DNA from: Tropicimonas isoalkanivorans
GTDB lineage: Bacteria; Pseudomonadota; Alphaproteobacteria; Rhodobacterales; Rhodobacteraceae
Assembly: GCF_900112335.1 (NCBI RefSeq)
Contig: NZ_FOLG01000003.1
Coordinates: 186,001 to 250,000 of the forward strand
Direction: 5' to 3'
DNA: 64,000 nucleotides
Position 1 is the stretch's first letter, and each line of letters begins with the position of its first letter. Positions 20,319-64,000 of the stretch are shown here, piece by piece. The notes under the pieces were generated by a model. It saw nothing but the letters and a program-made list of their open reading frames with translations, had not been told where the DNA came from and searched no databases. The position numbers and the translations under genes are program-made.

Positions 20319-21161
20319 ATGCACATCCCCCCCTTTGACAACGCCAACGCGCCCATCGTCGATGCCGACGATCCGCGGGTGCCGCTCAACTACTTCAATA
20401 TCGTGAAGCTCAAGGCGGGCGAGGCCTTCGAGTACCAGGTCCCCGGCTACGAGACGTGCATCGTTCCGGCAACGGGCACCGTGGACGTCGATATCGAGGG
20501 CGCGCGCTTCGCGGCTCTCGGCAACCGGAGCCGCGATGTCTGGGACGGCGAGCCGGAGGGCGTCTATGTTCCCTCCGGCGCGAGGGCGCTGATCGTTTGT
20601 GTTTCGGATGCTGCGGAAGTCTTCGTCGCCGGTGCCAGGTTCGACGAGACCTTGGACCCCTTCGACGTGCGGGCAGACGCCCTTGACGTTGTGCAATACG
20701 GCTCCGACGACACCAAGACCCATCGCAAGATCAAACACATCCTCGGCCAGAAACAACATGGCAAGGTCGGCCGGCTGCTGGTCTCCGAACTCTTTACCGT
20801 CGGCCAGGGGGGCTGGTCGGGTTTCCCGTCGCACAAGCACGACACGGACCGCCTGCCGGAGGAAACCCGACACGACGAGACGTACAACTTCCGCTTCCGG
20901 CCCAATCACGGCTCTGGGGTGCAAATGATGCAACGTGTCGATAACGAGCCCGGAGACGCCTATCACATCGTCGACGGGTCCACGATCCTGATCGACAAGG
21001 GGTACCACCCTTGCTGCGTTCTCCCGGGCTACGAGATGTACTATTTCACGATCCTGGGCGGATTGAGCCAGCGCCCGCTGGTGCAGTATTTTCAACCCAC
21101 GCATGCCTACCAGATCGAAACGATCCCCGGCATCAAGGACATGGTGGCGAAGTTCAAATGA
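20319..21161 (+). CDS. iolB: 5-deoxy-glucuronate isomerase
   Basis: Isomerises 5-deoxy-glucuronate to 2-deoxy-5-keto-gluconate, the IolC substrate. The bicupin protein has 280 residues. The second cupin carries the metal-binding pattern SGFPSHKHDTDRLPEETRHDE, followed by GYHPCCVLPGYEMYYF, both characteristic of IolB. It starts at ATG 20319 after GGAG. The stop overlaps the aldolase start (ATGA). It is placed after iolC in the same operon. Confidence 0.95.
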   Translation: MHIPPFDNANAPIVDADDPRVPLNYFNIVKLKAGEAFEYQVPGYETCIVPATGTVDVDIEGARFAALGNRSRDVWDGEPEGVYVPSGARALIVCVSDAAEVFVAGARFDETLDPFDVRADALDVVQYGSDDTKTHRKIKHILGQKQHGKVGRLLVSELFTVGQGGWSGFPSHKHDTDRLPEETRHDETYNFRFRPNHGSGVQMMQRVDNEPGDAYHIVDGSTILIDKGYHPCCVLPGYEMYYFTILGGLSQRPLVQYFQPTHAYQIETIPGIKDMVAKFK

Positions 21162-49551: not shown

Positions 49552-51453
49552 CTACGCGACTGGCTTGACCAGCATCCGGCCGCGCATCTCCATGTGGAGC
49601 GCGTGGCAGAACCACTGGCAGTAGTACCAATGCACGCCCGGCCGGTCGGCGGTGAAGGTGACCGACGCAGTGGCCTGCGGTCCGATCTCCATGGCGACTC
49701 CATGGTTGCCGAGGGTGAAGCCATGGGTCAGGTCGTCGACTTCATCCATGTTCGTGATGTAGATCGTCACCTCGTCGCCCTGATTGACCTCGAAGCTCTC
49801 GAGGCTGAAGGCTGGCGCGACAGAGGACATGTAGACCCGCACCTTGTTGCCGTCGCGGATCACGTCCTCGCCCCAGTCCAGGTCCACCCCATCGGCCTCG
49901 GCCTGTTTGCGGGCCTCTTCCCACATCGGGTCGTTGCGGTCGTAGATCGAAACCGGGTTCACCACATCCGCGCGCACAAGGATGCAGTCGTGCGGTTCGG
50001 CAAAGGTCGGTCCGTCGTGAACCAGCGCCATCCCGTCGCCCGAGATGTCGATGAGCTGATCGTTCTCCGGCTTCAGGGGGCCAACGTTCAGGAAGCGGTC
50101 CTTGGAGAACTTGTTGAGCGATATGAGCCACTTGCCATCGGCCTCCAGGGTCTCGCCCATGGTGGTGTGGTTGTGGCCGGGCTGATAGTGAACGTCGATC
50201 TTCTCGATGATCGGATCGGCATCCTCGCCGGCGAAGGCGCGCACTGCGTCTTCGAGGTTCCACTTCACCATCTGGCTGTCCAGGAACAGCGTGGTGAATG
50301 CGTTGCCCTTTCCGTCAAAAGCGGTGTGAAGCGGACCGAGACCCAGTTCCGGTTCGGCCGCGACAGCCGACCGCGGCTCAGCGCCGTCGAAGACGTCCGG
50401 AAGCTTGGTCACATCCACCACGGTAACGGTGGGCGAGAGCTTGCCGTTGATGCACAGGTGCCGCTTGTCGGGCGCCATGTTGCAGCCATGCGGCGAGTTG
50501 GAGATGGGAATGTACGCGGTGTATTTGGAGCCGCGCCGGCCATCCAGCACCTTGACGCCCTTGTACTCCTTGAAGTCGCCGGCCTTCACGCCGGCCTCGA
50601 TCGCCTCGATGTTGAAAACGACGACCCAGTCCTGCTCGTTCGCTGTCATGTCAGCGAGCGTCACGCCTTCCTCGGAGTTATAGCAGGTCGAGAAGGCCCA
50701 TTTGCCTTCATAGTCGGCGTCGCAGTTGTCTAGGTTGCCGTCGACGATCACTTGCCAGGCGACTTCCATCGTGTCGCCGTCTATGGCGGTGAAGATGGAG
50801 TGGTACTGGGTCGGATCGTCCAGCACGGAGCCGTCGTTAGGCAGCGGAATACGGTGCTCGCCATTGGCGAAGACATAGCCGGTGCGCGGATATTTCTGCG
50901 GACGAAGGCCATGGATATCCGACGTGTTGGGGATCTCGATGATCTTGTCGGTCTTCATGATGTCGCAGCGGATACGGGCGACGCGGGTGTTGGCCTTGTC
51001 GTTGGCGAACAGGTAGCGCCCGTCATAGGTCCCTTCGGTGAAGGACATGTGCGGGTGGTGCAGGTCGCCGTTGTCGTAGGTAACGCGGCCGCGCTTGGCG
51101 AGAAACTCCTTGGTTTCAGGCAGCAGGCCCTCGGTCAGGACTTTCAGGCTTTCGTTGGTGGAGCCCCACCCGGTCGCGGAACAGCGGTTGAACACCGGGA
51201 TTCGCATGAGCTCCCGCATCGACGGCACGCCCACGATCCGGATCTCGCCCGACTGCCCGGACGACCAGAAGCCGTAGTAGTCGTCGAGCTGTCCCGGTGC
51301 GACCTCGATTGCGGCGCCGGCCGCGGCTGCCTTGCGCGGCGCGGCCATCAGTCCGAGTCCACCGCTCGTGCCTGCCACAGCGGCCAGTGCTGCGGCACCT
51401 GCCGAGCCTTTGAACAGACCACGGCGCGTCATGCCGTTGGGGGTGTCAGTCAT
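49552..51453 (-). CDS. nosZ: Nitrous oxide reductase (clade I, Tat-exported)
   Basis: Reduces N2O to N2 in the periplasm. The 633-residue precursor has a twin-arginine signal ([18 protein letters not shown]), which marks clade I NosZ. The CuZ region carries His ligands in DLHHPHMSF and further His in the seven-bladed propeller ([17 protein letters not shown]). The C-terminal CuA domain has Cys612, Cys616, His620 and Met623 in [18 protein letters not shown] 51453 follows GGAGGG; earlier in-frame codons overlap nosR. It overlaps the nosR end by 8 bases. Confidence 0.97.
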
Positions 51454-53644
51454 TGGATTCCCTCCGTTTGTTTTCTCTTGCGATCTGGTTGGGATGGCCC
51501 ACGTTCGGGCGTTCGGAATGCGCAGCCAGCGAGGCGGCGGACGCCGCGGCCTGCGCACGCCGCTTGTCGACCTTGATGACGACCGGGCAGCGGGCATGGT
51601 CCTGATAGAGCACTTGGCAATTCAGGCAGGAGATGCACTCGTTCGGGTTGATCTCGCCGGTTGGGTGAATGGCATCGACCGGGCAGTCCGTGGCGCAGAG
51701 TTGGCAGGGATTGCCGCACTCCTTGTACCGCTTGAGCCACTGGAACATGTGCAATCGCGCCGGGATCGCGAGCCCCCCGCCGAGCGGGCAGACGTAGCGG
51801 CAGTAGAAGCGCTCGATGAAGAGACCGGGCAGCAGGCAGGCAAGTGCGATCAGCACGTATGGCAGCGGACGGGCAAACTTAAGGATGATCGCCGTCTTGA
51901 AGGGTTCGATCTCGGCCAGGTGTTCGGCGAGTTCGAACGAATAGAGCGACACGCCGAAGAGCCCGAGAAAGAGCATGTACTTCACCGCCCAGAGCCGCTC
52001 GTGCAGCCCCCAGGGAAGTGTGATCTGCGGCACCCGGAAGGCGCGGGCGATCTTGTTGGTGAGTTCCTGCAGCGCCCCGAACGGGCAGAGCCAGCCGCAA
52101 TAGGCGCCGCGCGCCCAGAACAGCAGCGCAGCGGCGACCGCGAACCAAAGGATGAAAATCAGCGGGTCCATCAGGAAGGTTTCCCAGTGGAAATCGCTGA
52201 ACACCGCATTGGCCACCGCGAGAACGTTCACGACCGAAAGCTGCGCGTTGGCGATCCAGCCGATGAAGACCAGGGTAAAAACGAGATAGGCGGTGCGCAG
52301 GATGTCGAAGGTGCGGGCGTTCTTCGTCGCGAACGACTGGAAGAAGAAGATGATGGTGAGCAGCCCGAGGGCGGCGGCGAGCACGACGACCTCGATACGT
52401 TTGGTCTGCCAGATCCGCTTCCAGAGGGCGTCCCGGGCCTGAGAATCCGTAGCTGCGGCGATGGTTTCCGGCGCGGCTGCCGGCGCGACCGTGCGGGTGT
52501 ACACATCGGGCAGCTCATAGCCCAGGTCGTAGGTCAGGAAGGTCTTTTCGATCGGCCCGACGGCACGGCTCACCAGGAATTGGAGCCTAAAAGGTTTTGC
52601 CGGATCGAAGCCGGCCTCGGCTGGGACGATGAAAAGGTCCATCTCCGAAAAGGCCGGCGCGCCGTCGGCGGCGACGCGAACGATGCGGGTGTGGTTGCGG
52701 TCGCGGAAGCGGAACGAGGCCTCTTCCTGGATCAGGTGGAACCTGTCGAAGATCCCGCCCCTCACATACCCCGACCCCTTGAACGACCAGCGACCGGCGC
52801 CGAAGACGGCGATGGCTTCGTCTCCCGGGTCCAGGCGCTTCTCCAGGTTGGCATAGGCGGCGTCGCCAAGGAGCGAGCGGCCAATCGCAGGCTGGCTGAC
52901 AAGGGCGGTCCAGACGGCGACGACCGGGTCTGTATCCGGACCCGGCTCCGCGTTCTTCTCGGTGCGCGGATCGCCGAGGGCGGCGAAGTCAGCGTTGATC
53001 TCCGCGACGTCGAGAGAGATCTGCCGGAGCGCTCCGTTGCCGGCAAGCGTTTGCCAGTCGGTCACGGCACCCGCCTCCCGGTCGATCTCGCGCTCCGGCC
53101 CGCCCGCCTGCTCAGCCGCAAAGCCCGGCAGGCCGAGGGTGCGCGCGACCGCGACCCCGGCACGCAAGATCGAGTCGTCGATCACCATGATGGTGACGGT
53201 TGCTCCCGAAACGATCTCCAGGTCACCTGCCGCTCGCGGACCTGACACATCGTGCAGATCGAATCCGGTGTAGTGCTGGATCACCTTGACGATTTCACTT
53301 TCGGGGATGCCCACTAGCACGATCGGCTCGGAGTGCTTGACGAGCTTGGCCCCTGTCAGAACCGCGTCCGGCGAAATTCCCGCAACGATATGGATCGGTT
53401 TGCCGGAGTAGCCCGTGGTCGGCACGAAATCCGACGTGAGGAAGGCCCAGCCCAAAACGTCGTCACCCGCCGTCGCCGGCACCAGGCCATCCTCGGTCAT
53501 CTCGCCGAATGAGGTCGCGTCCGGGACGATTTCCGAGGGTGTGACGGCGTCGAGGAGGTCACCGATCAGGGGTTCCGCATCTGCCGGAGCCGCGAGGCAC
53601 AGCAGCAACAGACACGCGATGGTGCGCAGACAGGTTCCGATCAT
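51446..53644 (-). CDS. nosR: NosR, membrane flavo-iron-sulfur electron donor for N2O reduction
   Basis: Membrane protein that feeds electrons to NosZ and supports nos expression. The 732-residue protein has a signal peptide, a periplasmic FMN-binding domain with the flavinylation motif SGATVT (residues 146 to 151), five or more membrane helices, and C-x3-CP motifs on the cytoplasmic side ([21 protein letters not shown]). Two ferredoxin-like 4Fe-4S motifs ([19 protein letters not shown] and [18 protein letters not shown]) follow. It is first gene of the operon. A Crp/Fnr-type box is 73 bases upstream of its ATG. NosX in the same operon would load the FMN. Confidence 0.96.
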
Positions 53645-53905: not shown

Positions 53906-54676
53906 CTAAAGGGACGCGATCATGCCGCCATCGACGCGCAACATAGATCCGGTGACGAAGCTTGCGCCGGAGGAACAGAGGAACGCGACCGCGGCGGCAA
54001 ACTCTTCGGGGCGGCCATAGCGGCCGGCCGGGATGGCAGCGCGGGACGCTTTCTCGATGTCAGCTACGTCAACACCCTGCTTCTTTGCCTTGATCGCATC
54101 CAACTCCGCCACCCTGTCGGTCGCGATCCGGCCGGGGAGCACCATGTTCACAGTGATCCCTAGGGACGCAACCTCGCGGGCAAGGGTCTTCGACCAGCCG
54201 GCAATGGCGCCGCGCACCCCATTGGAGAGCGCAAGGTTCGGGATCGGCGCCTGGACGCCTGACGAACCGATGGTCACGATGCGGCCCCAGCCTTGCGCTT
54301 CCATTCCGGGCAGAACGGCCTCGGTTATCGAAAAAATGGACAGGGCCATGGCGTCGAACGCCTTGGCCCAGGCCTCTGGTTTCAGTCCCCGCGCCGGGCC
54401 GGCTGCTGGTCCGCCACAATTGTTGACCAGGATCGAAACGCCCGCCTCGGAGAGCTCCGCGCAGAAGGCGTCCACCTCTTTCGTATCGGAGAGATCGAGG
54501 GCACGTCCTGACAACCGGGGGGCTGCTTCCGGAGATGCCCCTTGCGGCACGGTGCCCAACCGCGAAACCGCCAACACATCGGCGCCCTCGCCTGCCAGCG
54601 CCAGCGCCGACGCTGCCCCCAATCCGCGGCTGCCACCGAGAACGACAGCCTTCTTTCCGGTCAACCCGTAGTCCAT
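53906..54676 (-). CDS. SDR-family protein lacking the usual catalytic tyrosine
   Basis: The 256-residue short-chain dehydrogenase-like protein has a cofactor motif LGGSRGLGAAS (residues 13 to 23) and NNCGG in place of NNAG. In the active-site helix, the usual Y-x3-K is replaced: after IGSSGVQAPIP comes NLALSNGVRGAI, with Ser-Asn where Tyr is expected and Arg near the Lys position. A beta-ketoacyl-reductase-like subgroup with the same change is known. It could still reduce by another mechanism or act as a binding protein. ATG 54676 shares a base with the preceding stop. It is the last gene of the operon. Confidence 0.85.
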   Translation of the reverse strand: MDYGLTGKKAVVLGGSRGLGAASALALAGEGADVLAVSRLGTVPQGASPEAAPRLSGRALDLSDTKEVDAFCAELSEAGVSILVNNCGGPAAGPARGLKPEAWAKAFDAMALSIFSITEAVLPGMEAQGWGRIVTIGSSGVQAPIPNLALSNGVRGAIAGWSKTLAREVASLGITVNMVLPGRIATDRVAELDAIKAKKQGVDVADIEKASRAAIPAGRYGRPEEFAAAVAFLCSSGASFVTGSMLRVDGGMIASL

Positions 54677-55602
54677 CACACCAACTCCTTCAGTCGTTTG
54701 TCCTTGCGGGCGAGGAGGCGGTCCACCTCGTGCGCCGCCGCCCTGTCCAGCCCGGCACCGGGGGCCCGCAATGCGGGAGAGGCGATGGCCCCACGCGATG
54801 CGAGCACATATTTGCGCACGGCGAGCCCGAGGCCGGGCTGTTGTTCGTAGCGCATCAATGGCAAATAGGCGTCAAAGACATCCTGCGCCCGGTCCATCTG
54901 CCCCTGCCCTGCGCAGGAAACGACGTCGGCCAGCATCTCGGGGAAGGCGAAGCCCGTCATGGCCCCGTCGGCGCCACGTGCCATCTCCTCGGGCAGGAAG
55001 ACCCCACCGTTACCGCAGAGGATGGACACACGACGCGCGCCCTGACCCTCGGCTTCGCGCAGGGCGGAGACCTTGGCCAGCCCCGGCCAGTCCTCGTGCT
55101 TCAGCATCACGACATCGGTCTGGGCCGCGAAGATACGCAGCAGCACCGCAGCGTCGATTTGTACGCCGGTAGAGAGCGGAAAATCCTGGAGCACGACCGG
55201 CGTCCCCTTCCCCGCTGCTGTGCAGGCATGACCGTAGTAGGCCTCGATTTGGCTGTCGGTGCGCAGGTTGCCGGGTGGCGCGATCATCACACCCGCTGCA
55301 CCGAGGTCCATGACCGCTGCGGAAAGGTCCTTGATCGCGGCGAGCCCGGGAGCGGAGACGCCGACGACCACCGGCACGTCGCCTGCCCGTGCGATGACGC
55401 GCTCGGCAATGGTACGGGCCTCGGCCTGGGTCAGCTTCTGCGCCTCGCCCATCATGCCGAGAATGGTCAGCCCGGTTGCGCCGCGCTCGAGGTAGAAGTC
55501 GGTGACCCTGTCGAGGCTTTCAAAATCGATGGTGCCATCAGGCAGGAACGGCGTGACGGAGATGACGAAGACGCCGCTGGCGTCGGATGTGAGCAGGCTC
55601 AA
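54676..55602 (-). CDS. DapA/N-acetylneuraminate lyase-family aldolase or dehydratase
   Basis: Class I (Schiff-base) lyase of 308 residues. The family fold starts GVFVISVTPFLPDGTIDF, with GMMGEAQKL as the phosphate/carboxylate loop. The Schiff-base lysine is Lys168 in VVMLKHEDWPG. The usual catalytic Tyr of the Y-N-x-P motif is replaced by Gln139 (LQDFPLSTG), so it is unlikely to be dihydrodipicolinate synthase. I chose TTG 55602, because AAAGGAGG stands 5 bases upstream; the longer frame to 55668 has no family match. It follows the transporter genes and is coupled to the SDR. A keto-acid lyase or dehydratase in the catabolic route is likely. Confidence 0.87.
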   Translation of the reverse strand: MSLLTSDASGVFVISVTPFLPDGTIDFESLDRVTDFYLERGATGLTILGMMGEAQKLTQAEARTIAERVIARAGDVPVVVGVSAPGLAAIKDLSAAVMDLGAAGVMIAPPGNLRTDSQIEAYYGHACTAAGKGTPVVLQDFPLSTGVQIDAAVLLRIFAAQTDVVMLKHEDWPGLAKVSALREAEGQGARRVSILCGNGGVFLPEEMARGADGAMTGFAFPEMLADVVSCAGQGQMDRAQDVFDAYLPLMRYEQQPGLGLAVRKYVLASRGAIASPALRAPGAGLDRAAAHEVDRLLARKDKRLKELV

Positions 55603-55664
55603 GTTCGCCTCCTTTGATATGTCGGAAAATCCGGGCGGCGGTACGCGATCGCACGCCCGAAATG

Positions 55665-56486
55665 TCATTGAGGCGCGTTCACCGCCGCATTCGCCGCCAG
55701 TCGCCGGATCACCTCTCCGGCCAACATCGCCAGGCAGACGAGGGCCATGAGGAAGACACTGACCACCGCGATGGCAGGCGTCAGCTCGTACGTCACGGAG
55801 TCGTAGATCCGCACCGGCAGAGTCTCGATCCCCGGCCGGGTCAGGAACACCGCGATCAGCAGCTCGTCGAAGGCGATCAGAAAGCTGAGCGCGGCCGCGG
55901 AGACGATGCCGTGAATGGCCATGGGCAGGGTGACAAACGCGAACACCTGCCGCCGGTCGCCCCCGAGGCTGACTGCAGCGCGGATCACCGTGCCATCAAT
56001 CCCGCGCAGGCTGGCCGCGATGATGAGCGTCGCGACAGGCAGGCCAAGAAGCCCCTGCCCGACCGAGATCATCAGCCAGGTGGCATTCGCGGGCATCCAG
56101 GTGGCGAGAACATAAGTTGAAAAGGCGACGATGACCGTGGGCACCATCATCGGCATCAGCATCAGCACTTCCAGCATCCCCTTCAGGCGGGATTGCGAGT
56201 GCACGATGGCATAGGCTCCGAGATAGCCGATGGAGGTGGAAATCAGCGTGGCCACGGAGGCCGTCGCCAGGCTCCACCAGAAGGCGCTACGCCACTCGGC
56301 CCCGCCCAGCACCTCGCGATACCAGCGCAGCGAGAGCTTGTCGGGCAGCACGCTGACCGTGGGACTGTCGCCGAGCGAAATGGGGATCAACGCGATCAGC
56401 GGCAGCACCAGAAGGGCCAGAACGAGCCAGGCGTATCCGGCCAGCACGCGGTCGCCACGGGCGGCAGGTGTCATGCGGTCGCTCAT
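55665..56486 (-). CDS. ABC transporter permease, PotC type
   Basis: Second membrane subunit of a spermidine/putrescine-type (or opine-type) importer. The 273-residue protein has six hydrophobic segments, starting AGYAWLVLALLVLPLIALIPISL. The EAA-like loop is in AAVSLGGDRRQVFAFVTLPMA. ATG 56486 overlaps the preceding permease stop. Substrate is not evident from sequence. Confidence 0.92.
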   Translation of the reverse strand: MSDRMTPAARGDRVLAGYAWLVLALLVLPLIALIPISLGDSPTVSVLPDKLSLRWYREVLGGAEWRSAFWWSLATASVATLISTSIGYLGAYAIVHSQSRLKGMLEVLMLMPMMVPTVIVAFSTYVLATWMPANATWLMISVGQGLLGLPVATLIIAASLRGIDGTVIRAAVSLGGDRRQVFAFVTLPMAIHGIVSAAALSFLIAFDELLIAVFLTRPGIETLPVRIYDSVTYELTPAIAVVSVFLMALVCLAMLAGEVIRRLAANAAVNAPQ

Positions 56487-57370
56487 CCCTGGGGCCTCAT
56501 CAGTCGAGAAAGTCCGAGCCAGCGGGCCGCCGCAGCGTATGTGGTCAGAACGATGACCAACATGACGACCGAGATCGTCGCCGCGCCGGGCAGATCATAC
56601 ATCACCAGGATCCGCTGCTCGACCATCTGTGCAATCATCCGTTCCCCCGGGCCGCCCATCATTGCCGGCGTCACGAAGTAGCCGAAGCCGAGGATCGTGG
56701 TGATGATTGCCCCCGCCGCCACACCGGGCAGGCTGAGGGGGACGTAGACAGTCCAGAACACCCGCGCGCGGCTTGCGCCGAGGCTGCGGGCGGCATCGAG
56801 CAGCGTGTGGTCGATCTTGCGCATGGTGCCGATCAGCGACAGCAGCATGTAGGGCAGCAACACGTACGTCATGCCGATCACGACGCCAATCTGGTTGAAA
56901 AGCAGTTTGAACGGTGCCCCGGGAACCCCGAGCCATTCGAGCGCGGAGTTGAATACGCCGTTACGCCCCAGGAGCACGATGAAGACAAAGGTGCGCACCA
57001 GCGAGCTGGTGAGGAATGGAAAGAGAATGGCAACGCTGGTGAGGCTCGCTCTCCAGCCGTTCAGGCGCGACAGGTAGATCGCCGCCGGATAGCCGATAAC
57101 CAGGCAGGCAAGCGTGACCTCCAGCGAGGTCACGGCGGTTTGCAACAGCACCGGCCGCAGGCTGCTGGTGGCGAGAAGTCCACGGAAATTCTCAAGTGTC
57201 GCGCCGCCGTCGTCACCTGTGACACTGAGCAGAAGGACCTTGGCAAGCGGCGCGATGAAGGTGACGCCCAGGAACACCAGGATCACCGCGACGCCGAGCC
57301 ACTGCAGTTCCGCCAGCGAAGAGAGGAACCGTCGCGGGGCCACGGTCGGGGAAAGGCTTGCGTCAGACAT
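56483..57370 (-). CDS. ABC transporter permease, PotB type
   Basis: First membrane subunit of the same importer, 295 residues. Six hydrophobic segments are seen, with the EAA-like loop in AARSLGASRARVFWTVYVPLSLPG. ATG 57370 overlaps the ATPase stop by 8 bases; a GTG at 57379 is an alternative. It pairs with the PotC-type permease downstream. Confidence 0.92.
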   Translation of the reverse strand: MSDASLSPTVAPRRFLSSLAELQWLGVAVILVFLGVTFIAPLAKVLLLSVTGDDGGATLENFRGLLATSSLRPVLLQTAVTSLEVTLACLVIGYPAAIYLSRLNGWRASLTSVAILFPFLTSSLVRTFVFIVLLGRNGVFNSALEWLGVPGAPFKLLFNQIGVVIGMTYVLLPYMLLSLIGTMRKIDHTLLDAARSLGASRARVFWTVYVPLSLPGVAAGAIITTILGFGYFVTPAMMGGPGERMIAQMVEQRILVMYDLPGAATISVVMLVIVLTTYAAAARWLGLSRLMRPQG

Positions 57371-58511
57371 CACTGCCACCGGTGGGGATCAGGTGAATGT
57401 CGGCGGGGTCCCAACTGATGCGGGCTGACGTGCCCGGCGCAAGTTGTGCGTGGGCGGCGCGCGCGACCTGCTGCACCAGCAGGGGGGCTTCCGAAAGCCC
57501 AGTTTTGACCTCGTAGCGGATCGACTGACCGACGAACGCCATGTCGGTAACGACGCCGTCAACATGGCGGCCATCGGGGTGCGCGACCGCGTCCGCCGGC
57601 GTGGCGGTAAGCGCCTCGGGACGCAGCAGAGCGGCATAGGTTTGGCCGGTTTGCAGCCCGTCTTCTGCACCGGGGGCCAGCGCGAGCAACCGGCCTGACA
57701 CCCGGAGCGTCCCATCTTGAAGTTGCCCGGTGAGCAGGTTTGAATCACCAAGGAACTGTGCGGCGAACAGCGTCTTTGGACGTCGGTAGAGGTCCTGCGC
57801 CGGCCCGTACTGCTCGATCAGACCGTCCCGCATGAGCGCCACACGGTCCGAGAGCAACATGGCTTCGTTCTGGTCGTGGGTGACATAGATCACCGTTGCG
57901 CCGAGTTCGCGCTGAAGGCGGCGGATCTCCCACTGCAGCTCCTCCTTGAGCCGCACGTCGAGGGCCCCCATCGGCTCGTCCATCAGCAGCACGGACGGCT
58001 CGAACACCAGCGCCCGCGCCAGCGCGACCCGCTGTTGCTGACCACCGGAGAGGTGGGAGGGCTTGCGATGTGCCAGCGCATCGAGCTGCACAAGTTTAAG
58101 CACTTCCCCCACCCGCTTGTTGATCTCGGCCCGGGGGAGGCGGCGCACCTTCAACGGGTAGGCAACGTTCTGCGCCACCGTCATGTGCGGGAAGAGAGCG
58201 TAGTTCTGGAACACGATCCCCATGTCACGCTCCCGCCCCGGTGGCAGCGCCGTCACATCGCGCCCGCCAACCGTGATACGGCCGGCGTCGGGCGTCACGA
58301 AGCCTGCGATGGCCATGAGTGTCGAGGTCTTGCCCGAGCCCGACGGCCCCAGCAGGGTCACGAACTCGCCGGCCTTAACGTCGAGGTCGACACCCGCAAG
58401 AATGCGGGTGCCGCCAATCGACTTGGAAATCGCCTCGAGGTGGACCGAGGCGGATTTGGTCACCCGCACCGCCTCGGTATCTGCCACTGACATGTCCATC
58501 TTTGGGCTCAC
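57363..58511 (-). CDS. ABC transporter ATPase, PotA type
   Basis: ATPase of the importer, 382 residues. It has Walker A LGPSGSGKTST, Q-loop FQNYALFP, signature LSGGQQQRV, Walker B VLLMDEPMGALD, and switch His in VTHDQNEA. A C-terminal TOBE domain follows (about 285 to 370). GTG 58511 overlaps the binding-protein stop (GTGA), in the style of the other junctions. ATG 58499 or 58493 would shorten it by four or six residues. Confidence 0.93.
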   Translation of the reverse strand: MSPKMDMSVADTEAVRVTKSASVHLEAISKSIGGTRILAGVDLDVKAGEFVTLLGPSGSGKTSTLMAIAGFVTPDAGRITVGGRDVTALPPGRERDMGIVFQNYALFPHMTVAQNVAYPLKVRRLPRAEINKRVGEVLKLVQLDALAHRKPSHLSGGQQQRVALARALVFEPSVLLMDEPMGALDVRLKEELQWEIRRLQRELGATVIYVTHDQNEAMLLSDRVALMRDGLIEQYGPAQDLYRRPKTLFAAQFLGDSNLLTGQLQDGTLRVSGRLLALAPGAEDGLQTGQTYAALLRPEALTATPADAVAHPDGRHVDGVVTDMAFVGQSIRYEVKTGLSEAPLLVQQVARAAHAQLAPGTSARISWDPADIHLIPTGGSDV

Positions 58512-59587
58512 TGCGCCGCCCAGGTATTCCAGGCCTGGGTCACGGCCTCGGCGTTCTCACCCCACCATGCGACGTTCTGGGTGAAGCCCTTGTCGTTCCA
58601 CTCCGGGTTGGTGGGCAGCTTGGCCGCCATTTCAGGAGCAATCAGTTCGAAGGCCTTCTGGTTGGTCGGGCCATAGGGGATCTCCTCGACGAAACGCGCT
58701 TGGGTTTCGGGCGAAAGCGCGAAGTCGATGAATTTGTGCGCGTTCTCGAGGTTCACCGGGTTCTTCAGGATCGCGTAGGCACTCGGCATTTTCATGTGTT
58801 CATTCCACTCGATCGCATAGTCACCGCCCTCGTCGATCATCGGCTGGATGCGGCCGTTGGCGATGGCCTCGATGTCCACCTCGCCGGTCGACAGCAAGTT
58901 GGCCGAAATCGCATCGGTGTCGTAGAAGCTTACGATATCGTCGCGGATACGGCTGAAGGCGGCAAGCGCTCGGTCAATGTCGAGCGGGTAGAGTTCGTCC
59001 ATCGGCACGCCGTCGGCCAGCAGGGCAAATTCCAGATCGGGCATGTTAAGGTCAAGCCCAGAGATCGCACGCGCGCCGGGGAACTGTTCGACATCCCAGA
59101 ATTCGGCCCAGCTCGTGGGGGCACCGTCGGCGAAAGCCTTGGTGCTGTAGCCAAGCACCCGGGCATATACCATGCGGCGCACCATCAGTTCCTGAGCGGA
59201 ATCGGCGCCGATGTCGTCGACACTGAACATGGTGAAGCGGTTGTAGTCGACCGGCTCCAGCACGTCGTTGGCAGCGAGGGTCTGCAACAGGCCCTCGCTG
59301 GTGTCGACCACGTCGACCAGCGGCTGCTCGTTCTTGACGGACTGGATCAGTGGCGCCATGTCGCTTGGCGTCTTGACGACCTGAATGCCGGTCGCCTCGG
59401 TGAAGGGGCCATAGACCGCGCGCTCCATGGCATCGCCGTAGGAGCCGCCGGAACTGGTGCGGATAATCACCTGGTTCGATTGCGCGCGCGCCATGTGACC
59501 GCGCGAGATCATCGCGGCGGCGGGGAGTGTGGCTGCGCTGGCTTTAAGGAAGCCGCGACGTGTAAAGCCAGATCTATTCTGTGTCAT
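58508..59587 (-). CDS. Extracellular solute-binding protein, PotD/opine type, Tat-exported
   Basis: Periplasmic receptor of the importer, 359 residues. It has a twin-arginine signal (FTRRGFLKASAATLPAAAMI), then a type II binding fold starting VIIRTSSGGSYGDAMERAVYG and DMAPLIQSVKNEQPLVDVV. ATG 59587 follows AAGGAAA; the frame further upstream overlaps the M24 gene and is not coding. Tat export suggests folding before secretion. It is the second gene of the operon after the M24 gene. The ligand is probably a small amine or amino acid derivative. Confidence 0.92.
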   Translation of the reverse strand: MTQNRSGFTRRGFLKASAATLPAAAMISRGHMARAQSNQVIIRTSSGGSYGDAMERAVYGPFTEATGIQVVKTPSDMAPLIQSVKNEQPLVDVVDTSEGLLQTLAANDVLEPVDYNRFTMFSVDDIGADSAQELMVRRMVYARVLGYSTKAFADGAPTSWAEFWDVEQFPGARAISGLDLNMPDLEFALLADGVPMDELYPLDIDRALAAFSRIRDDIVSFYDTDAISANLLSTGEVDIEAIANGRIQPMIDEGGDYAIEWNEHMKMPSAYAILKNPVNLENAHKFIDFALSPETQARFVEEIPYGPTNQKAFELIAPEMAAKLPTNPEWNDKGFTQNVAWWGENAEAVTQAWNTWAAQ

Positions 59588-59643
59588 CGATGTGTTTCCT
59601 TTTTTCGAATAGCGTTTGGTTGGTCGATTGGTCTGCGCCCGCG

Positions 59644-60798
59644 TCAGACCCGGTACAGCCCGCCTCTGGTAAGGGCCTCGGGCCCCTCCGGGCCGAGTGC
59701 GGCGGTGGAGCCGATTGCGACGGCCTTGCCGTCGGGCAAGTGACCGACGCACACCACATGGAATGTCATCCCGATCTCCAGCGGCATCTCGACCACCGAA
59801 TTGAGTCCGAGCTGCCATTGCGCGCCCCAGGAGGGCGGAAAGCCGAGACCGAGGGAGTAACCTGAGCGGCGCGCGAGCGTGAGGCCATGGTTCATTCCAT
59901 CGAGAACGGCCATGGCAGCATCATTGATGACCCGCATCGGAGCACCCGGCTCCATCGCCGCCACGGCCGCCGCCTGCGCCTTCACCAAGGCCTCCGCGCC
60001 GCGTTCTATGGCCGGTTCGGGCTTGCCGACGAGCGTGACCCGCATGGATGGCGCGTGATACCGCCCGCGCACCCCTGTTACCTCCGTGACGACATGGTCG
60101 TCGGCCTCGATGACGGTGCCTTCCCAGGTCGCATGGATCAGCCCGGTGCGTATGCCGGATGTGATATTTGGCCAGCTCCCAGGATATTCCGACCCGTAGG
60201 CGATCATGGCGCTCAGGACCATCGCAGACAGGTCATTCTCGCTACGGCCTGCGGCGATCACCTGTCCCACGCTGTTGGAGACCTTATCGCCGATCCGGCC
60301 GGCTTCCCGCATTACGTCGAGTTCCGCGGGGCGCTTGACCAGCCGCATCCTGTCGATCAGCGAGGAGACATCGATCCAATCGACGCCCGTGTGGCTTGCG
60401 GTGATGTCCGCCGCCCTCTGGGCCGACATCGTCCAGCTTGCGAGTTCAAGACCAACTTTCTGCCCCGCACCGAGGCGGCGCGCGAGGAAGCCGCTAGAGA
60501 CCTCGATCGGATCTTCGTCATCCTGGAACACGACAAAGTCATCGAGGCCCCCTGCCCTCACGGCATCACGGGCGTTCACATATTCCATCTGGCGGGTGAA
60601 GAGTTCGAGCGGGCCGCTTCGGAGAAAGAGGAGGAACTGGAAAGTGAAGACCGCCTTGGTCTGGTAGCCCGTGAGGTAAAGGATATTTTCCGGCGCGCTG
60701 ACGACGATCGCGTCAAGCCGCTCGGCCTCCATTCGGGACCGGAGAGCCTCTTGTCGCGCCGCATATTCTTCGCGGCTGAATCCGGTGAACCTGTCCAT
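59644..60798 (-). CDS. M24-family hydrolase, creatinase/ectoine-hydrolase-like
   Basis: 'Pita-bread' fold protein of 384 residues with an N-terminal creatinase domain (VVSAPENILYLTGYQTKAVF) and a C-terminal M24 domain. The metal-binding residues of true aminopeptidases seem absent: the first Asp position is Glu (TEVTGV), the second reads HAPSMR without Asp, and the His motif GHxxGL is GYSLGLGFPPSWG. The GYSLGLG-FPP form is shared with creatinase-like C-N hydrolases. It therefore more likely opens a small non-peptide substrate. It is the first gene of the transporter operon, with a GntR operator about 95 bases upstream. Confidence 0.88.
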   Translation of the reverse strand: MDRFTGFSREEYAARQEALRSRMEAERLDAIVVSAPENILYLTGYQTKAVFTFQFLLFLRSGPLELFTRQMEYVNARDAVRAGGLDDFVVFQDDEDPIEVSSGFLARRLGAGQKVGLELASWTMSAQRAADITASHTGVDWIDVSSLIDRMRLVKRPAELDVMREAGRIGDKVSNSVGQVIAAGRSENDLSAMVLSAMIAYGSEYPGSWPNITSGIRTGLIHATWEGTVIEADDHVVTEVTGVRGRYHAPSMRVTLVGKPEPAIERGAEALVKAQAAAVAAMEPGAPMRVINDAAMAVLDGMNHGLTLARRSGYSLGLGFPPSWGAQWQLGLNSVVEMPLEIGMTFHVVCVGHLPDGKAVAIGSTAALGPEGPEALTRGGLYRV

Positions 60799-60885
60799 CG
60801 TCTTTGCTCCAGTCCGAGCTCCGCCCTCAAGACGGCTCCGTTAAGCAAGGTTTTCTCTCGCTACGTAAATCAGTGTGCCAGTTGT

Positions 60886-60901
60886 ATACCACCTGTCAAC
60901 C
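60886..60901 (-). promoter_or_regulatory. Probable GntR operator before the M24/transporter operon
   Basis: ATACCACCTGTCAACC occurs here and again, identical and in the same orientation, at 62786-62801. The flanks GTTG (60881-60884) and CAAC (60897-60900) form an outer inverted pair. The site is in the 194-base gap upstream of the M24 start (60798). Confidence 0.75.
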
Positions 60902-60992
60902 CGCAACATTCGATTGGAATATTGCGCACCGCGCTTCGCCCAGGGATTGATCGTGTCGCCAAGTCTTGAGGCGGCTAGCAAATTCGCCGGCG

Positions 60993-62075
60993 TCAGATGC
61001 CCCAAACGTCACGCCGAAGCCGGAATGTGTGGTCAGGGGCTTTCCTGGAGATCGCGAATTCCGATGCCGAATCGCCCGCGCAGGCGGATAGGCGCGAGAC
61101 AGCCGCGAGGAGATCCAACGTCGCCGCATCCGCTTCTGGCCCGGGGGTGTGCGTTTCGGCCAGGGACGCGAGCCAGTCGGTGTCCGACGTGCTGGCGGTG
61201 CCTTCGGATGTGGAGGCTTCACAGTGCATGAACCTCACAATGGATCCGGGCGATATCTGCGCAAAGCGGCCGAGATCCGGGTCAATGATCGTTCCAATCT
61301 TCGGATAGCCACCCATAGTGGCCGCATCGCACATTTGCACCACCGGCTGCCCGCCGTTTGGCAACTGGACGATACCCGGAACAATCCCATGCGAGCGCAG
61401 TTCGGGCACCCCTTTCATGGTCAGGACCGGACCTTCGAGCCGATGGCCCGCGCGGTTGCATTGCGCCGTCACCCGCCATGGCCCGTTCCAGAAATCCGCT
61501 CGGCTTTCTGGATCGAGGTAGGCATATTCCGCGGCCGGGATCACACGGAAGGGCGCCAAGCCGACCCGAGGCGGCGGTTGGATCGGGCAACAGAACGGAA
61601 ACCGCAGCGGCGCGGCGCCGACCGGGAGCCGGTCTCCGATCTTCAGCGGCCGACCCATGTGGCCCCCAAAACTGCCCCGCAACTGGGTGCTCCGAGAGCC
61701 TAAAACGAGCGGGACATCTATCCCGCCAGCCACCGTAAGATACGAATAGGTCCCCCCGGGACGCGGCTCGATCTCCAACACCTGGCCGGCGAACACGCTG
61801 AGCGTGGTCCAACTGTCGACGCAACGGTCCCCAAGGCCCGCAATCATGCTGGCGCCGGTCAGGGCGATGGAGGTATGTCGATGAAACCTCAAGGATATTA
61901 CTGCCCTCGGCAGCTCGATCCCCGCGAGCCCCTCGGGATTGCCGAGCACGATGTTACCTGCCGCCAACGCCGCCAAATCGGCTGCGCCCGCACGGGGAAC
62001 CCCTTCCGACAGATGCCCCAGTCGACCGTGGTCCTGTACTGTCACATGGGGCGTGGTAGCCAGCACCTCGATCAT
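60993..62075 (-). CDS. pxpC: 5-oxoprolinase-type subunit PxpC (biotin-dependent carboxyltransferase domain)
   Basis: Part of the PxpABC complex that, in characterised bacteria, hydrolyses 5-oxoproline to glutamate with ATP. The 360-residue protein belongs to the carboxyltransferase/allophanate-hydrolase subunit 2 family. Recognisable parts are VTVQDHGRLGHLSEGVPRAGA at the start, VAGGIDVPLVLGSRST, and the C-terminal LPNGGQPVVQMCDAATMGGYPKIG. ATG 62075 overlaps the pxpB stop. Proteins of this family have also been recruited to other cyclic amides and ureas, so the substrate here is open. Confidence 0.9.
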   Translation of the reverse strand: MIEVLATTPHVTVQDHGRLGHLSEGVPRAGAADLAALAAGNIVLGNPEGLAGIELPRAVISLRFHRHTSIALTGASMIAGLGDRCVDSWTTLSVFAGQVLEIEPRPGGTYSYLTVAGGIDVPLVLGSRSTQLRGSFGGHMGRPLKIGDRLPVGAAPLRFPFCCPIQPPPRVGLAPFRVIPAAEYAYLDPESRADFWNGPWRVTAQCNRAGHRLEGPVLTMKGVPELRSHGIVPGIVQLPNGGQPVVQMCDAATMGGYPKIGTIIDPDLGRFAQISPGSIVRFMHCEASTSEGTASTSDTDWLASLAETHTPGPEADAATLDLLAAVSRLSACAGDSASEFAISRKAPDHTFRLRRDVWGI

Positions 62076-62716
62076 GGCCGCGCCACCGGAACAAACCGCA
62101 CCCTGTCCCCCGCTGCAAGCAGCGCGGGCGGGTCACGGTCGGCCACGAACATGCGCAACGAGGTCCGCCCCAGAACATGCCAGCCCGTCGGGCCATCCGA
62201 CGCCGAGACGCCTGTCTGCGCGCCGGCGATGGAAACTGTGCCGGCCGGCATGCTGATGCGAGGCTCCGCCCGTCTGGGAACCTCAAGAACCGGGTCGAGC
62301 GGGCCGAGGTACCCAAACCCTGGATGGCTGCCGATGGCGAAGGCGCTGTACGTCGGGGCAGCGTGCCGAGCGATCACCTCGGCGGGGCTGAGACCAGAAA
62401 GCCGAGAAACGAGTTCGAGGTCGACACCATCGTAGACGACCGGGATTTCCAGCAGGCGGCCGGGCGCAACCTGCTTTTTGGGGAGCCGTCGAACCTCCTC
62501 CCAGGTCTCGAGGAGGCGTTCCTCCAGGTCCGCTGACGGACCCCACGTGACCACCGTCAAGTTGGTTACACCGGGACACGTCTCACGGACCTCGTCCCAT
62601 CCATCGACCTTGCGCGCCAGCGCCCAGATCCGTTCCTGAACCGTTAGCGAAAACGCGCCGCCCGCGTCGAACAGTAGCGCCCGCGCACCAAGTGAACTTA
62701 TGATAGGAGCGGTCAT
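62072..62716 (-). CDS. pxpB: 5-oxoprolinase-type subunit PxpB
   Basis: Partner of PxpC, 214 residues, allophanate-hydrolase subunit 1/KipI family. Motifs include ARALLFDAGG, EIPVVYDGVDLELVS and the strongly conserved IGSHPGFGYLGPLDPVLEVPRR. ATG 62716 has AGGAG upstream. The frame continues upstream to 62803 through the promoter and operator and is not likely to be translated. It is the first gene of the pxpBC unit, divergent from the GntR gene. Confidence 0.9.
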   Translation of the reverse strand: MTAPIISSLGARALLFDAGGAFSLTVQERIWALARKVDGWDEVRETCPGVTNLTVVTWGPSADLEERLLETWEEVRRLPKKQVAPGRLLEIPVVYDGVDLELVSRLSGLSPAEVIARHAAPTYSAFAIGSHPGFGYLGPLDPVLEVPRRAEPRISMPAGTVSIAGAQTGVSASDGPTGWHVLGRTSLRMFVADRDPPALLAAGDRVRFVPVARP

Positions 62717-62785
62717 GCGGCTCTCTGGGCTCCCGAAGCGTGGCCGGTTGGAGAAAAACGCTCTGGCTTTTGCCTGCCAAATGGA

Positions 62786-62801
62786 ATACCACCTGTCAAC
62801 C
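62786..62801 (-). promoter_or_regulatory. Probable GntR operator at the pxpB/gntR divergent promoter
   Basis: Second exact copy of ATACCACCTGTCAACC, lying 70 bases before pxpB and 32 before the GntR start. An overlapping inverted pair CAACC/GGTTG (62797-62809) adds dyad symmetry. Position suggests control of both pxpBC and the regulator itself. Confidence 0.78.
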
Positions 62802-62832
62802 AATGGTTGATGATTTTCTGGGAGGTCAATAA

Positions 62833-63504
62833 TTGGTGGACAAGGCAGAGAACGGGGGCGACCAGCGCCGGTCGATGGTGGCCTATGAGGTGCTGCTGGA
62901 AAAGATCCTCTCCGGTGAGCTCTTGCCCGGCTCGATCATTCAGGAACGGCGCTTGACCGAAGAGATTGGCGTGTCGCGTACGCCGGTCCGGGACGCCCTG
63001 CTGATGCTCGAAAACGAGGGCCTTCTGGTCCGCCGCGAACCGCGTATGCTTCAAGTCAAGCACATGGATACGCGGGAATACTTCGACAATCTTCATATCC
63101 GCCAAATTCTCGAGCCGGAGGCTGCGAGCCTTGCCGCCCAGCGCGTCGCCACCGCCGAAGTGGAGGCCTTGGAAGCCCGGATCGAAGCACTTGCCGCATC
63201 CGACGAGCCCGAACGGGCCGAAATTCGCGCCACCGACGAACGCCTGCATGAGATGATCGGCCTGAATTCGGGAAATCCGCAGTTGTGGCGCATTGTGCAG
63301 GGGTTGCGCCTTCAGACCCTCGTCTTCGACGTCAAGAGCTTGCCCGAAAGGCGCCAGGCCACCTTTGCCGAGCACCTCACAATCCTGGGGGCGCTCAAGG
63401 CACGTAACTCTGATGCTGCCCGAGACGCCATGTTCAGCCACCTCGAGAATGTGCGCAAAAGCATCATCGACCATCTGACCGGCGGCGGAGCCAGCGGCCG
63501 TTAG
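62833..63504 (+). CDS. GntR-family regulator, FCD subgroup
   Basis: Probable repressor of the surrounding catabolic genes, 223 residues. The winged HTH (LLPGSIIQERRLTEEIGVSRTPVRDALLMLENEGLL, about residues 30 to 65, written here only in part of its length) is followed by an all-helical FCD effector domain with His/Asp metal-binding positions around ATDERLHEMIGL and TFAEHLTILGAL. TTG 62833 has GGGAGG 7 bases upstream; GTG 62836 is an alternative. Its stop overlaps the convergent pxpA stop by 4 bases. FCD regulators usually sense carboxylic acids. Confidence 0.93.
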   Translation: MVDKAENGGDQRRSMVAYEVLLEKILSGELLPGSIIQERRLTEEIGVSRTPVRDALLMLENEGLLVRREPRMLQVKHMDTREYFDNLHIRQILEPEAASLAAQRVATAEVEALEARIEALAASDEPERAEIRATDERLHEMIGLNSGNPQLWRIVQGLRLQTLVFDVKSLPERRQATFAEHLTILGALKARNSDAARDAMFSHLENVRKSIIDHLTGGGASGR

Positions 63505-64000
63505 CCGTTGAGGTATTGGGCGCAAACCCGAAAGCCCGCCTCTTCCAGCGCCGCCCTCAGAGCTTTAGCGATGGTCAGGGCACCCGGGGTGTCGCCATGC
63601 ACACAAATCGAGTCGATCGCCGTCGGCAATCGTCTGCCGCTTTCGGCGATGAGTGCACCTTCGGAGAGCATCGCCTTGACCGCCGACATGATCTCTGCCG
63701 TGTCGTGGCGCACTGCTCCGGGCTGTCGCCTATCCGACAAATTGAAATTATCCGCATAAGTCCGGTCGGCATAAATTTCGCTGATCGGGGTCAGCCCAAG
63801 CTTCTCAGCCGCGCGTTCCGTCGCCTGCCCGGGCATCACCATGTAACGCAGCGCAGGGTCGACCGCTTTGATCCCCCGCCCGACGGCCATGGCCAGAGCG
63901 TCATCCTCCGCGCAAATATTGCCCAATGCCCCATGCGTTTTCACATGGGTCATGGGCACCCCTTCCAGCGCGGCAATTCCGGCGAGAGCGCCGACCTGGT
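63501..64000 (-). CDS. pxpA: 5-oxoprolinase-type subunit PxpA, LamB/YcsF family (5' part outside window)
   Basis: The gene enters from beyond base 64000; the last 166 codons are visible. Family features are QVGALAGIAALEG, then the motif MTHVKTHGALGN, where most relatives have HVKPHGALYN. ISEIYADRTYADNFNLSDRRQPGA and a C-terminal SICVHGDTPGAL match the YcsF/PxpA pattern well. It is on the same strand as pxpB and pxpC but separated from them by the gntR gene, so it must be transcribed from a promoter outside the window. Together the three subunits would make a complete PxpABC enzyme. Confidence 0.9.
   Translation of the reverse strand, partial: QVGALAGIAALEGVPMTHVKTHGALGNICAEDDALAMAVGRGIKAVDPALRYMVMPGQATERAAEKLGLTPISEIYADRTYADNFNLSDRRQPGAVRHDTAEIMSAVKAMLSEGALIAESGRRLPTAIDSICVHGDTPGALTIAKALRAALEEAGFRVCAQYLNG

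Follow-up and report, generated by a model that had tools for sequence, protein, structure and literature searches.

Gene content and operator-like sites

The locus considered here occupies the right-hand end of a 64,000-nucleotide stretch of Tropicimonas isoalkanivorans DNA (the window; C48:186001-250000 of the 4.98-Mb, 4,976,641-base assembly) and very probably constitutes a single regulon under a regulator of the GntR/FCD type. From right to left it comprises PxpA, the GntR/FCD gene on the other strand, PxpB, PxpC, a member of the M24 family, a solute-binding protein (SBP), PotA, PotB, PotC, a DapA-family lyase and a short-chain dehydrogenase/reductase (SDR), with the genes from M24 to SDR in one tightly packed run. 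Past the window end, directly after PxpA and divergent from it, follow a carbamoylase-type amidohydrolase of the M20 family and a D-2-hydroxyacid dehydrogenase (2HADH); positions beyond 64000 are window-equivalent coordinates derived from stretch L002, for which the offset was checked. All genes named in a first-pass annotation of this DNA were recovered by profile searches at or near the places it had given.

The regulator gene (62833-63504, plus strand; FCD 83.5 bits, GntR 56.3 bits) is accompanied by two operator-like sites on the minus strand, TTGACAGGTGGTATTCCA between GntR and PxpB (62782-62799) and TTGACAGGTGGTATACAA before the M24-Pot-DapA-SDR run (60882-60899). Both carry ATACCACCTGTCAACC on the plus strand and have TTGACAGGTGGTAT in common, after which comes ACAA or TCCA. 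No other place in the assembly matches TTGACANNTGGTATNCNA without mismatch, which bears out the earlier claim that the same sites mark both promoters; with up to two mismatches, 12 places are found, compared with 3 for a reversed control pattern. A shorter core, TGGTATWCMA, drawn up after the sites had been seen, matches three times in the 19-kb locus (0.02 expected). The third match, TGGTATTCCA, lies between PxpA and M20 (64303-64312); TTGACA, present two bases before the core at the other two sites, is missing there. Over the whole window the signal of TGGTATNCNA is weaker, with 2 matches against 0.41 expected and 7 of 100 shuffles reaching two. The strong part of the operator evidence is the long site and its placement.

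Enzymes and transporter

All three PxpABC subunits are present. PxpB (62072-62716, minus strand; CT_C_D, E 8.3e-57) exceeds the TIGR00370 cut-off (163 vs 145.55 bits); its open reading frame was listed from a TTG at 62803, but the ATG at 62716 is the likelier start. PxpC (60993-62075, minus strand; CT_A_B, E 1.6e-77) passes TIGR00724 (260 vs 230 bits) and stays below the 5-oxoprolinase equivalog NF045499 (243.4 vs 500). PxpA (63501-64000 and on to 64274, minus strand; LamB_YcsF 312.6 bits) likewise lies above two subfamily cut-offs (333.4 vs 226, 235.3 vs 213) and below three equivalog cut-offs (243.2 vs 392, 241.2 vs 337, 209 vs 378). Identity to the E. coli proteins is 42% for PxpB, its closest relative in the set compared, 39% for PxpC, as close as any, and 43% for PxpA. 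The three subunits are shared with the 5-oxoprolinase operons of E. coli (pxpBCA) and, according to PMC13274462, C. glutamicum (pxpTABC); here, in contrast, they stand among M24, M20 and DapA genes, and two of them miss the equivalog cut-offs. The genome holds a second PxpB/PxpC-like pair (L121, G000 C20:432663-433439), 31-33% identical to the proteins of locus L055.

The M24 protein (59644-60798, minus strand; Creatinase_N and Peptidase_M24) had been described as metal-less, and its alignment with prolidase agrees: Glu239 and Pro250 take the places of the first and second metal Asp and Tyr314 that of the metal His, these being the three of five ligands reached before the alignment ends. The ectoine hydrolase DoeA likewise has Glu, Pro and Tyr at these positions. 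It is the best solved relative by sequence (117.5 bits; creatinase 35 bits) and fills ranks 1 to 5 of a fold search with a model of moderate confidence (pLDDT 72.5); stretches HxTW and E..GV..RYHAP are common to both proteins. Catalysis in DoeA is covalent and proceeds through a Glu. Assignment as DoeA/EutD was nevertheless rejected, because the protein falls below both curated cut-offs (TIGR02993 156.2 vs 613, NF038259 216.1 vs 575) and a separate DoeA scoring above cut-off (701.7) is encoded elsewhere in the genome, on C28. The protein probably works as a metal-less C-N hydrolase of the DoeA kind but should not be filed as an ectoine hydrolase. With creatinase and creatinine routes it shares the creatinase-family fold without metal; the match is weaker, however, and neither creatininase nor sarcosine oxidase was recognised among the genes scanned here.

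The M20 hydrolase (64361-65650, plus strand; M20 73.9 bits) exceeds the hydantoinase/carbamoylase cut-off TIGR01879 (267.5 vs 204), and among solved structures it is closest to 3n5f, an N-carbamoyl-L-amino acid hydrolase (186 bits). Its score of 271 against 520 for ErtE led to the rejection of ergothioneine catabolism as such. The 2HADH gene follows at 65647-66636 (plus strand; 2-Hacid_dh_C 157.5 bits). Relatives of M20 at 41-44% identity adjoin dihydroorotate dehydrogenase genes in four plasmid loci (Klebsiella, Roseomonas, Agrobacterium, Nitratireductor), and a 48% relative in Neorhizobium is one gene away from dihydropyrimidinase. On the Klebsiella pneumoniae plasmid NZ_CP050823.1 (L053, 8002-11309), dihydroorotate dehydrogenase, M20 hydrolase and dihydroorotase are direct neighbours and likely form an operon for orotate catabolism; 539 plasmid records from Klebsiella were matched by the M20 query.

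The importer corresponds to the Tat-exported binding protein and Pot-type transporter of the first-pass annotation. The SBP (58508-59587, minus strand; SBP_bac_8, E 2.5e-28) begins with MTQNRSGFTRRGFLKASA, whose TRRGFLK we take to be a twin-arginine-type signal. PotA-like ATPase (57363-58511; ABC_tran and TOBE_2; TIGR01187 340 vs 355.6 bits), PotB-like permease (56483-57379; NF007044 157.1 vs 348 bits) and PotC-like permease (55665-56486; BPD_transp_1; NF007047 109.8 vs 326 bits) follow on the same strand, and the SBP reaches 42.7 on PotD (cut-off 582). Since the curated PotA and PotD cut-offs are missed, the transporter type is the same but a polyamine substrate is not implied. The nearest PDB entries to the SBP are 4i1d (185 bits), the agropine permease 6hly (148 bits) and chains labelled as GABA sensors or with mannopine; its structure model was too poor to use (pLDDT 41).

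At the left end, the DapA-family lyase (54676-55668, minus strand; Pfam DHDPS, E 1e-25; best PDB entry 3dz1, 335 bits) carries the motifs GMMGEA, QDFP and LKHEDWPG and scores below the 4-hydroxy-tetrahydrodipicolinate synthase cut-off (TIGR00674 91.2 vs 206.15). Its active site is atypical, as claimed before: in 9/9 aligned subfamily members (a standard-type DapA from L016 was left out of these counts) the Schiff-base Lys of LKHEDWPG is kept, Met-Met replaces Thr44-Thr45 and Gln replaces Tyr133, in what we take to be the E. coli numbering. The SDR (53906-54679, minus strand; adh_short_C2, E 6.7e-40) not only lacks the catalytic Tyr, as had been noted, but also has Arg for the catalytic Lys (PIPNLALSNGVR); both losses and the motif PIP-x-L-x2-SN-x2-R recur in 9/9 aligned members, whereas the neighbouring paralogue SDR2 keeps Tyr and Lys. 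That the residues are lost in a conserved rather than a random way argues for an altered reaction rather than decay.

Conservation in other genomes

The M24 proteins closest to that of the window (53-67% identical) come from Poseidonocella (L004), Sodalis sp. dw_96 (L005) and Rhizobium smilacinae (L006). PotABCD and the core site occur in all four loci of this clade, the window included, as does a GntR gene (40-70% identity; in L006 44% over 153 residues). PxpABC is present in two (window, L005), M20 with 2HADH in two (window, L004) and DapA in two (window, L005); the L004 contig stops shortly after PotC, its downstream part lying outside the comparison. Sodalis has, in one locus, GntR and PxpA opposite PxpB-PxpC-DapA-M24-SBP-PotA-PotB-PotC, so that much of the set proposed from the window alone is found together elsewhere. 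The recurrence of its parts in distant bacteria points to a genuine catabolic pathway. Poseidonocella combines M20, 2HADH, GntR, M24 and SBP-PotABC. The core stands before M20, GntR and M24 in Poseidonocella (three places, 0.04 expected), before PxpB in Sodalis (a second match, at 20504, is away from these genes; one of 100 shuffles reaches two) and before M24 in R. smilacinae. On a Labrenzia plasmid (L011), which encodes a GntR relative of 37.7% identity, TGGTATACCA occurs at 1106, before a VOC-ABC-amidohydrolase-racemase-DapA-SDR run, and again at 310, inside the GntR gene. L011 alone was positive in a core scan of seven loci, and a scan of 19 loci of relatives, six of them from the previous scan, gave one match, in L031, far from its DapA. 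By M24 searches, the window's own genome was the only one to match this clade among 60, 394 and 299 genomes (at 1e-60, 1e-90 and 1e-90; overlapping sets), and peptide patterns located three of its loci in the genome collection.

A second M24 clade (Salipiger type, at least 64% identity) recurs on alphaproteobacterial plasmids and is represented by 17 plasmid records, with an M20 match within 6 kb in at least 14 among the matches listed. Seven of these loci were opened: L014, L048 and L054, which had been met via other searches, and L125-L128, picked from the 17 records. All seven carry the three Pxp genes no more than about 6 kb from M24, with PxpA at about 5-6 kb, and the PxpA of the window is 49-55% identical to theirs. 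A 2HADH gene is present in six (not in L054), as is M20 (L125, one of the three records beyond those 14, has none annotated in its operon). Five have a D-amino-acid transaminase gene next to PxpA (L014, L048, L125, L126, L128); in L127 it lies further from PxpA, beside a variant operon. This variant, with M20b, an enolase-family gene and M24, also occurs in A. fabrum C58 (L124) and Shinella (L016), and in L124 and L127 it adds VOC, 2HADH and transaminase genes. In Salipiger L048, a DapA (71.8%) and a Tyr-less SDR stand at the other end of the cluster. A protein of DUF1989 type lies beside the cluster in L014, L126 and L128 (Pfam was run on L014 only); members of this family act as carboxyguanidine deiminases. 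Two distinct M24/M20 operon types adjoin on the Rhizobium lusitanum plasmid (L127, 5723-25065), together with D-amino-acid transaminase and a VOC protein whose identity to its L014 counterpart is 88-92% across the four loci compared. A Shinella plasmid (L015, 4498-14595) brings together ectoine-type EhuABCD genes, two M24 genes and sarcosine oxidase subunits, which suggests a creatine- or betaine-like route.

Broader samples were taken from the class, with neighbours labelled by BLASTP of open reading frames against a reference set of annotated plasmid loci and the window, families outside that set being invisible. At 1e-35, M24 matched 71/387 genomes, the window's own included, none other exceeding 35% identity. 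From the matches listed, 20 high-scoring places, though not exactly the 20 best, were opened along with 20 of low score; a 2HADH-like gene was present in four of these 40 loci, SBP and PotA/B/C-like genes near M24 in two low-scoring ones (L094, L095), and in L065, L068 and L070 an M20 whose best match, at 33%, is the amaB-annotated protein of L013. M20 matched 21/377 genomes, own included, and 20 of the 23 other places were opened: 2HADH is adjacent in L101-L103 and about 3 kb off in L104, a hydA-like gene is close by in L113, L114 and L117, PotA/B/C-like genes occur in L105, L110 and L111, and a 41% GntR relative lies beside M20 in L100.

For DapA, matches were found in 38/337 genomes, own included, and 20 of 38 other places (the first 19 and the 21st) were opened. 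A strict pattern matched 15 of these loci (L043-L047 were left out of the motif count), all 15 with the Lys, QD[F/Y]P and no Thr-Thr, six with GMMGEA. Among the 20, a Tyr-less SDR occurs in seven, an Asp/Glu racemase in seven and a hydantoinase-like or ErtD-like amidohydrolase in eight, within the fetched stretch. By annotation, an SDR gene directly follows DapA in six of 11 opened plasmid loci (L007, L009, L010, L011, L048, L050); by BLASTP this also holds for L012, and in L008 the SDR is about 4 kb away. On the ErtD model (hydantoin-5-propionate amidohydrolase; cut-off 600), the amidohydrolase of plasmid locus L009 reaches 491.7. DapA and the Tyr-less SDR are a second module, often near hydantoinase-like amidohydrolases and Asp/Glu/hydantoin racemases.

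On its left, the locus adjoins genes at 49552-53644 that we take, from their sequence, to be NosZ- and NosR-like (nitrous oxide reduction). The stretch right of the nos genes was viewed in four of eight congeners: the nosR-side DNA is kept, similarity ends at or before 53744, and the catabolic genes are absent beside nosR. About 17 kb beyond that point in these four yielded no other DNA match to the locus and, at the protein level, one 40% 2HADH; an M24 search at 1e-60 in all eight gave no match. To the right lies a separate minus-strand run (66777-68998, L002 16778-18999) of an MhpD-like hydratase, an SDR with catalytic Tyr/Lys and a permease named from sequence as TRAP-type.

A candidate pathway and its alternatives

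The best explanation of the whole, which we favour with modest confidence, is an inducible catabolic pathway under GntR control whose substrate would be a cyclic ureide, amidine or lactam. The regulator would respond to the substrate at a likely operator with the TGGTATNCNA core, placed between gntR and pxpB, before M24-SBP-PotABC-DapA-SDR and between pxpA and M20-2HADH. A small nitrogen-containing compound would enter through the Pot-type transporter. M24 may open a C-N bond by DoeA/creatinase-like chemistry, with Glu and His in place of the metal, ATP-dependent PxpABC may open a lactam or cyclic ureide, and M20 may hydrolyse an N-carbamoyl or N-acyl amide; together, these steps would yield an amino acid. 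Its 2-oxo acid could then pass to 2HADH and to the DapA-type Schiff-base enzyme, for cleavage or dehydration, acting with the Tyr-less SDR. That the regulon as such serves C-N ring catabolism of this class seems slightly better than an even bet. A candidate substrate like a cyclic urea, lactam or amidine (the first-pass annotation had guessed at a substituted pyrrolidone, a cyclic urea or a molecule like a compatible solute) gains in likelihood from the carbamoylase-type M20 and the hydantoinase and racemase company of DapA elsewhere. Hydantoin and ureide catabolism (hydantoinase, racemase, carbamoylase; ErtD/ErtE-type) resembles the locus in these same two respects. It differs in that the genes scanned here include no recognised cyclic amidohydrolase or racemase, whose roles PxpABC and M24 may have taken over.

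Several observations weigh against such a pathway. PxpABC was found in none of the sampled M24 (0/40), M20 (0/20) or DapA (0/20) neighbourhoods; window-type M20 was likewise absent from the 40 M24 loci, M24 was absent from the 20 M20 loci, and it occurred in one DapA locus (L030). R. smilacinae has M24-SBP-PotABC and the core, with no recognised PxpABC, M20 or DapA. The core is absent from 7/7 second-clade M24 loci, from L055, L016 and L124 and from most DapA loci searched, and is therefore no marker of a wider pathway; moreover, TGGTATACCA is common among the operators of FCD regulators, which makes the core by itself weak as evidence, and a sigma-70 scan gave no promoter-like match at either promoter site of the window. 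The Sodalis PxpB and PxpC are only 34% and 36% identical to those of the window (PxpA 50%), so that its assembly may have happened on more than one occasion. The genome has a single PxpA, so PxpABC could be an ordinary 5-oxoprolinase. Finally, we know of no compound that accounts for all enzymes. The proposal of one uncharacterised catabolic regulon is supported, that of a fixed gene unit is not. Evenly drawn genomes rarely contain the full set, whose patchiness, together with the low PxpB and PxpC identities, fits repeated assembly by gene transfer. Among the titles listed in literature searches, none describes this gene set.

Two unrelated functions, in which a housekeeping 5-oxoprolinase for pyroglutamate salvage merely shares its GntR regulator with an M24-Pot-DapA-SDR operon, would explain the sole PxpA, the closeness of PxpB and PxpC to E. 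coli and the failure to find PxpABC in L004 and L006. We consider this unlikely: the sites are common to all units, PxpB-PxpC-DapA-M24 are contiguous in Sodalis, PxpABC accompanies M24 in every opened second-clade locus, PxpA is nearer to those proteins than to that of E. coli, and PxpC scores less than half its 5-oxoprolinase cut-off. A still less probable reading is a pathway for cyclic dipeptides or peptides with D-amino acids, with PxpABC opening diketopiperazines, M24 and M20 cutting dipeptides and D-amino-acid transaminase removing nitrogen. The transaminase beside PxpA in most opened second-clade loci and the enolase-family variant with M20 and M24 (L124, L127, L016) speak for it, but the metal ligands needed for dipeptidase action are lost in M24, the M20 of the window is of carbamoylase type, and no transaminase was recognised among the scanned genes of the window locus.

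Ectoine utilisation offers the closest likeness in design: according to PMC5924519, an M24 hydrolase (DoeA/EutD) opens a cyclic amidine first, amide hydrolysis and nitrogen removal follow, and importer and regulator lie within the cluster. That the locus is a second ectoine/hydroxyectoine cluster with an unusual importer is nonetheless very improbable: for all its motifs in common with DoeA, M24 scores far under the DoeA cut-offs, the genome has its own DoeA, PxpABC, M20, DapA and SDR replace the partners downstream, the importer is Pot-type, and no ectoine-route partner was recognised among 15 scanned locus genes.

Returning to the ureide, amidine or lactam pathway, a more specific version can be offered tentatively, and we would not bet on it: PxpABC and the metal-less M24 may have been taken on to open the ring of a cyclic guanidine or ureide (hydantoin- or glycocyamidine-like). 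They would feed a tail of the DapA variant (QD[F/Y]P, no Tyr) and the Tyr/Lys-less SDR, which would perform a reaction that neither family is known to catalyse; this tail would be common to clusters opening the ring by hydantoinase and racemase.

If the locus is one pathway, it would provide functions for a branch each of PxpABC, DoeA-like M24, DapA and SDR proteins. To the DapA branch belongs the solved entry 3dz1, whose title says no more than dihydrodipicolinate synthase; the SDR branch has lost its catalytic pair while retaining a conserved motif. The set is small, its regulator has candidate sites and its binding protein lends itself to direct screening, which makes the question of the substrate readily testable.

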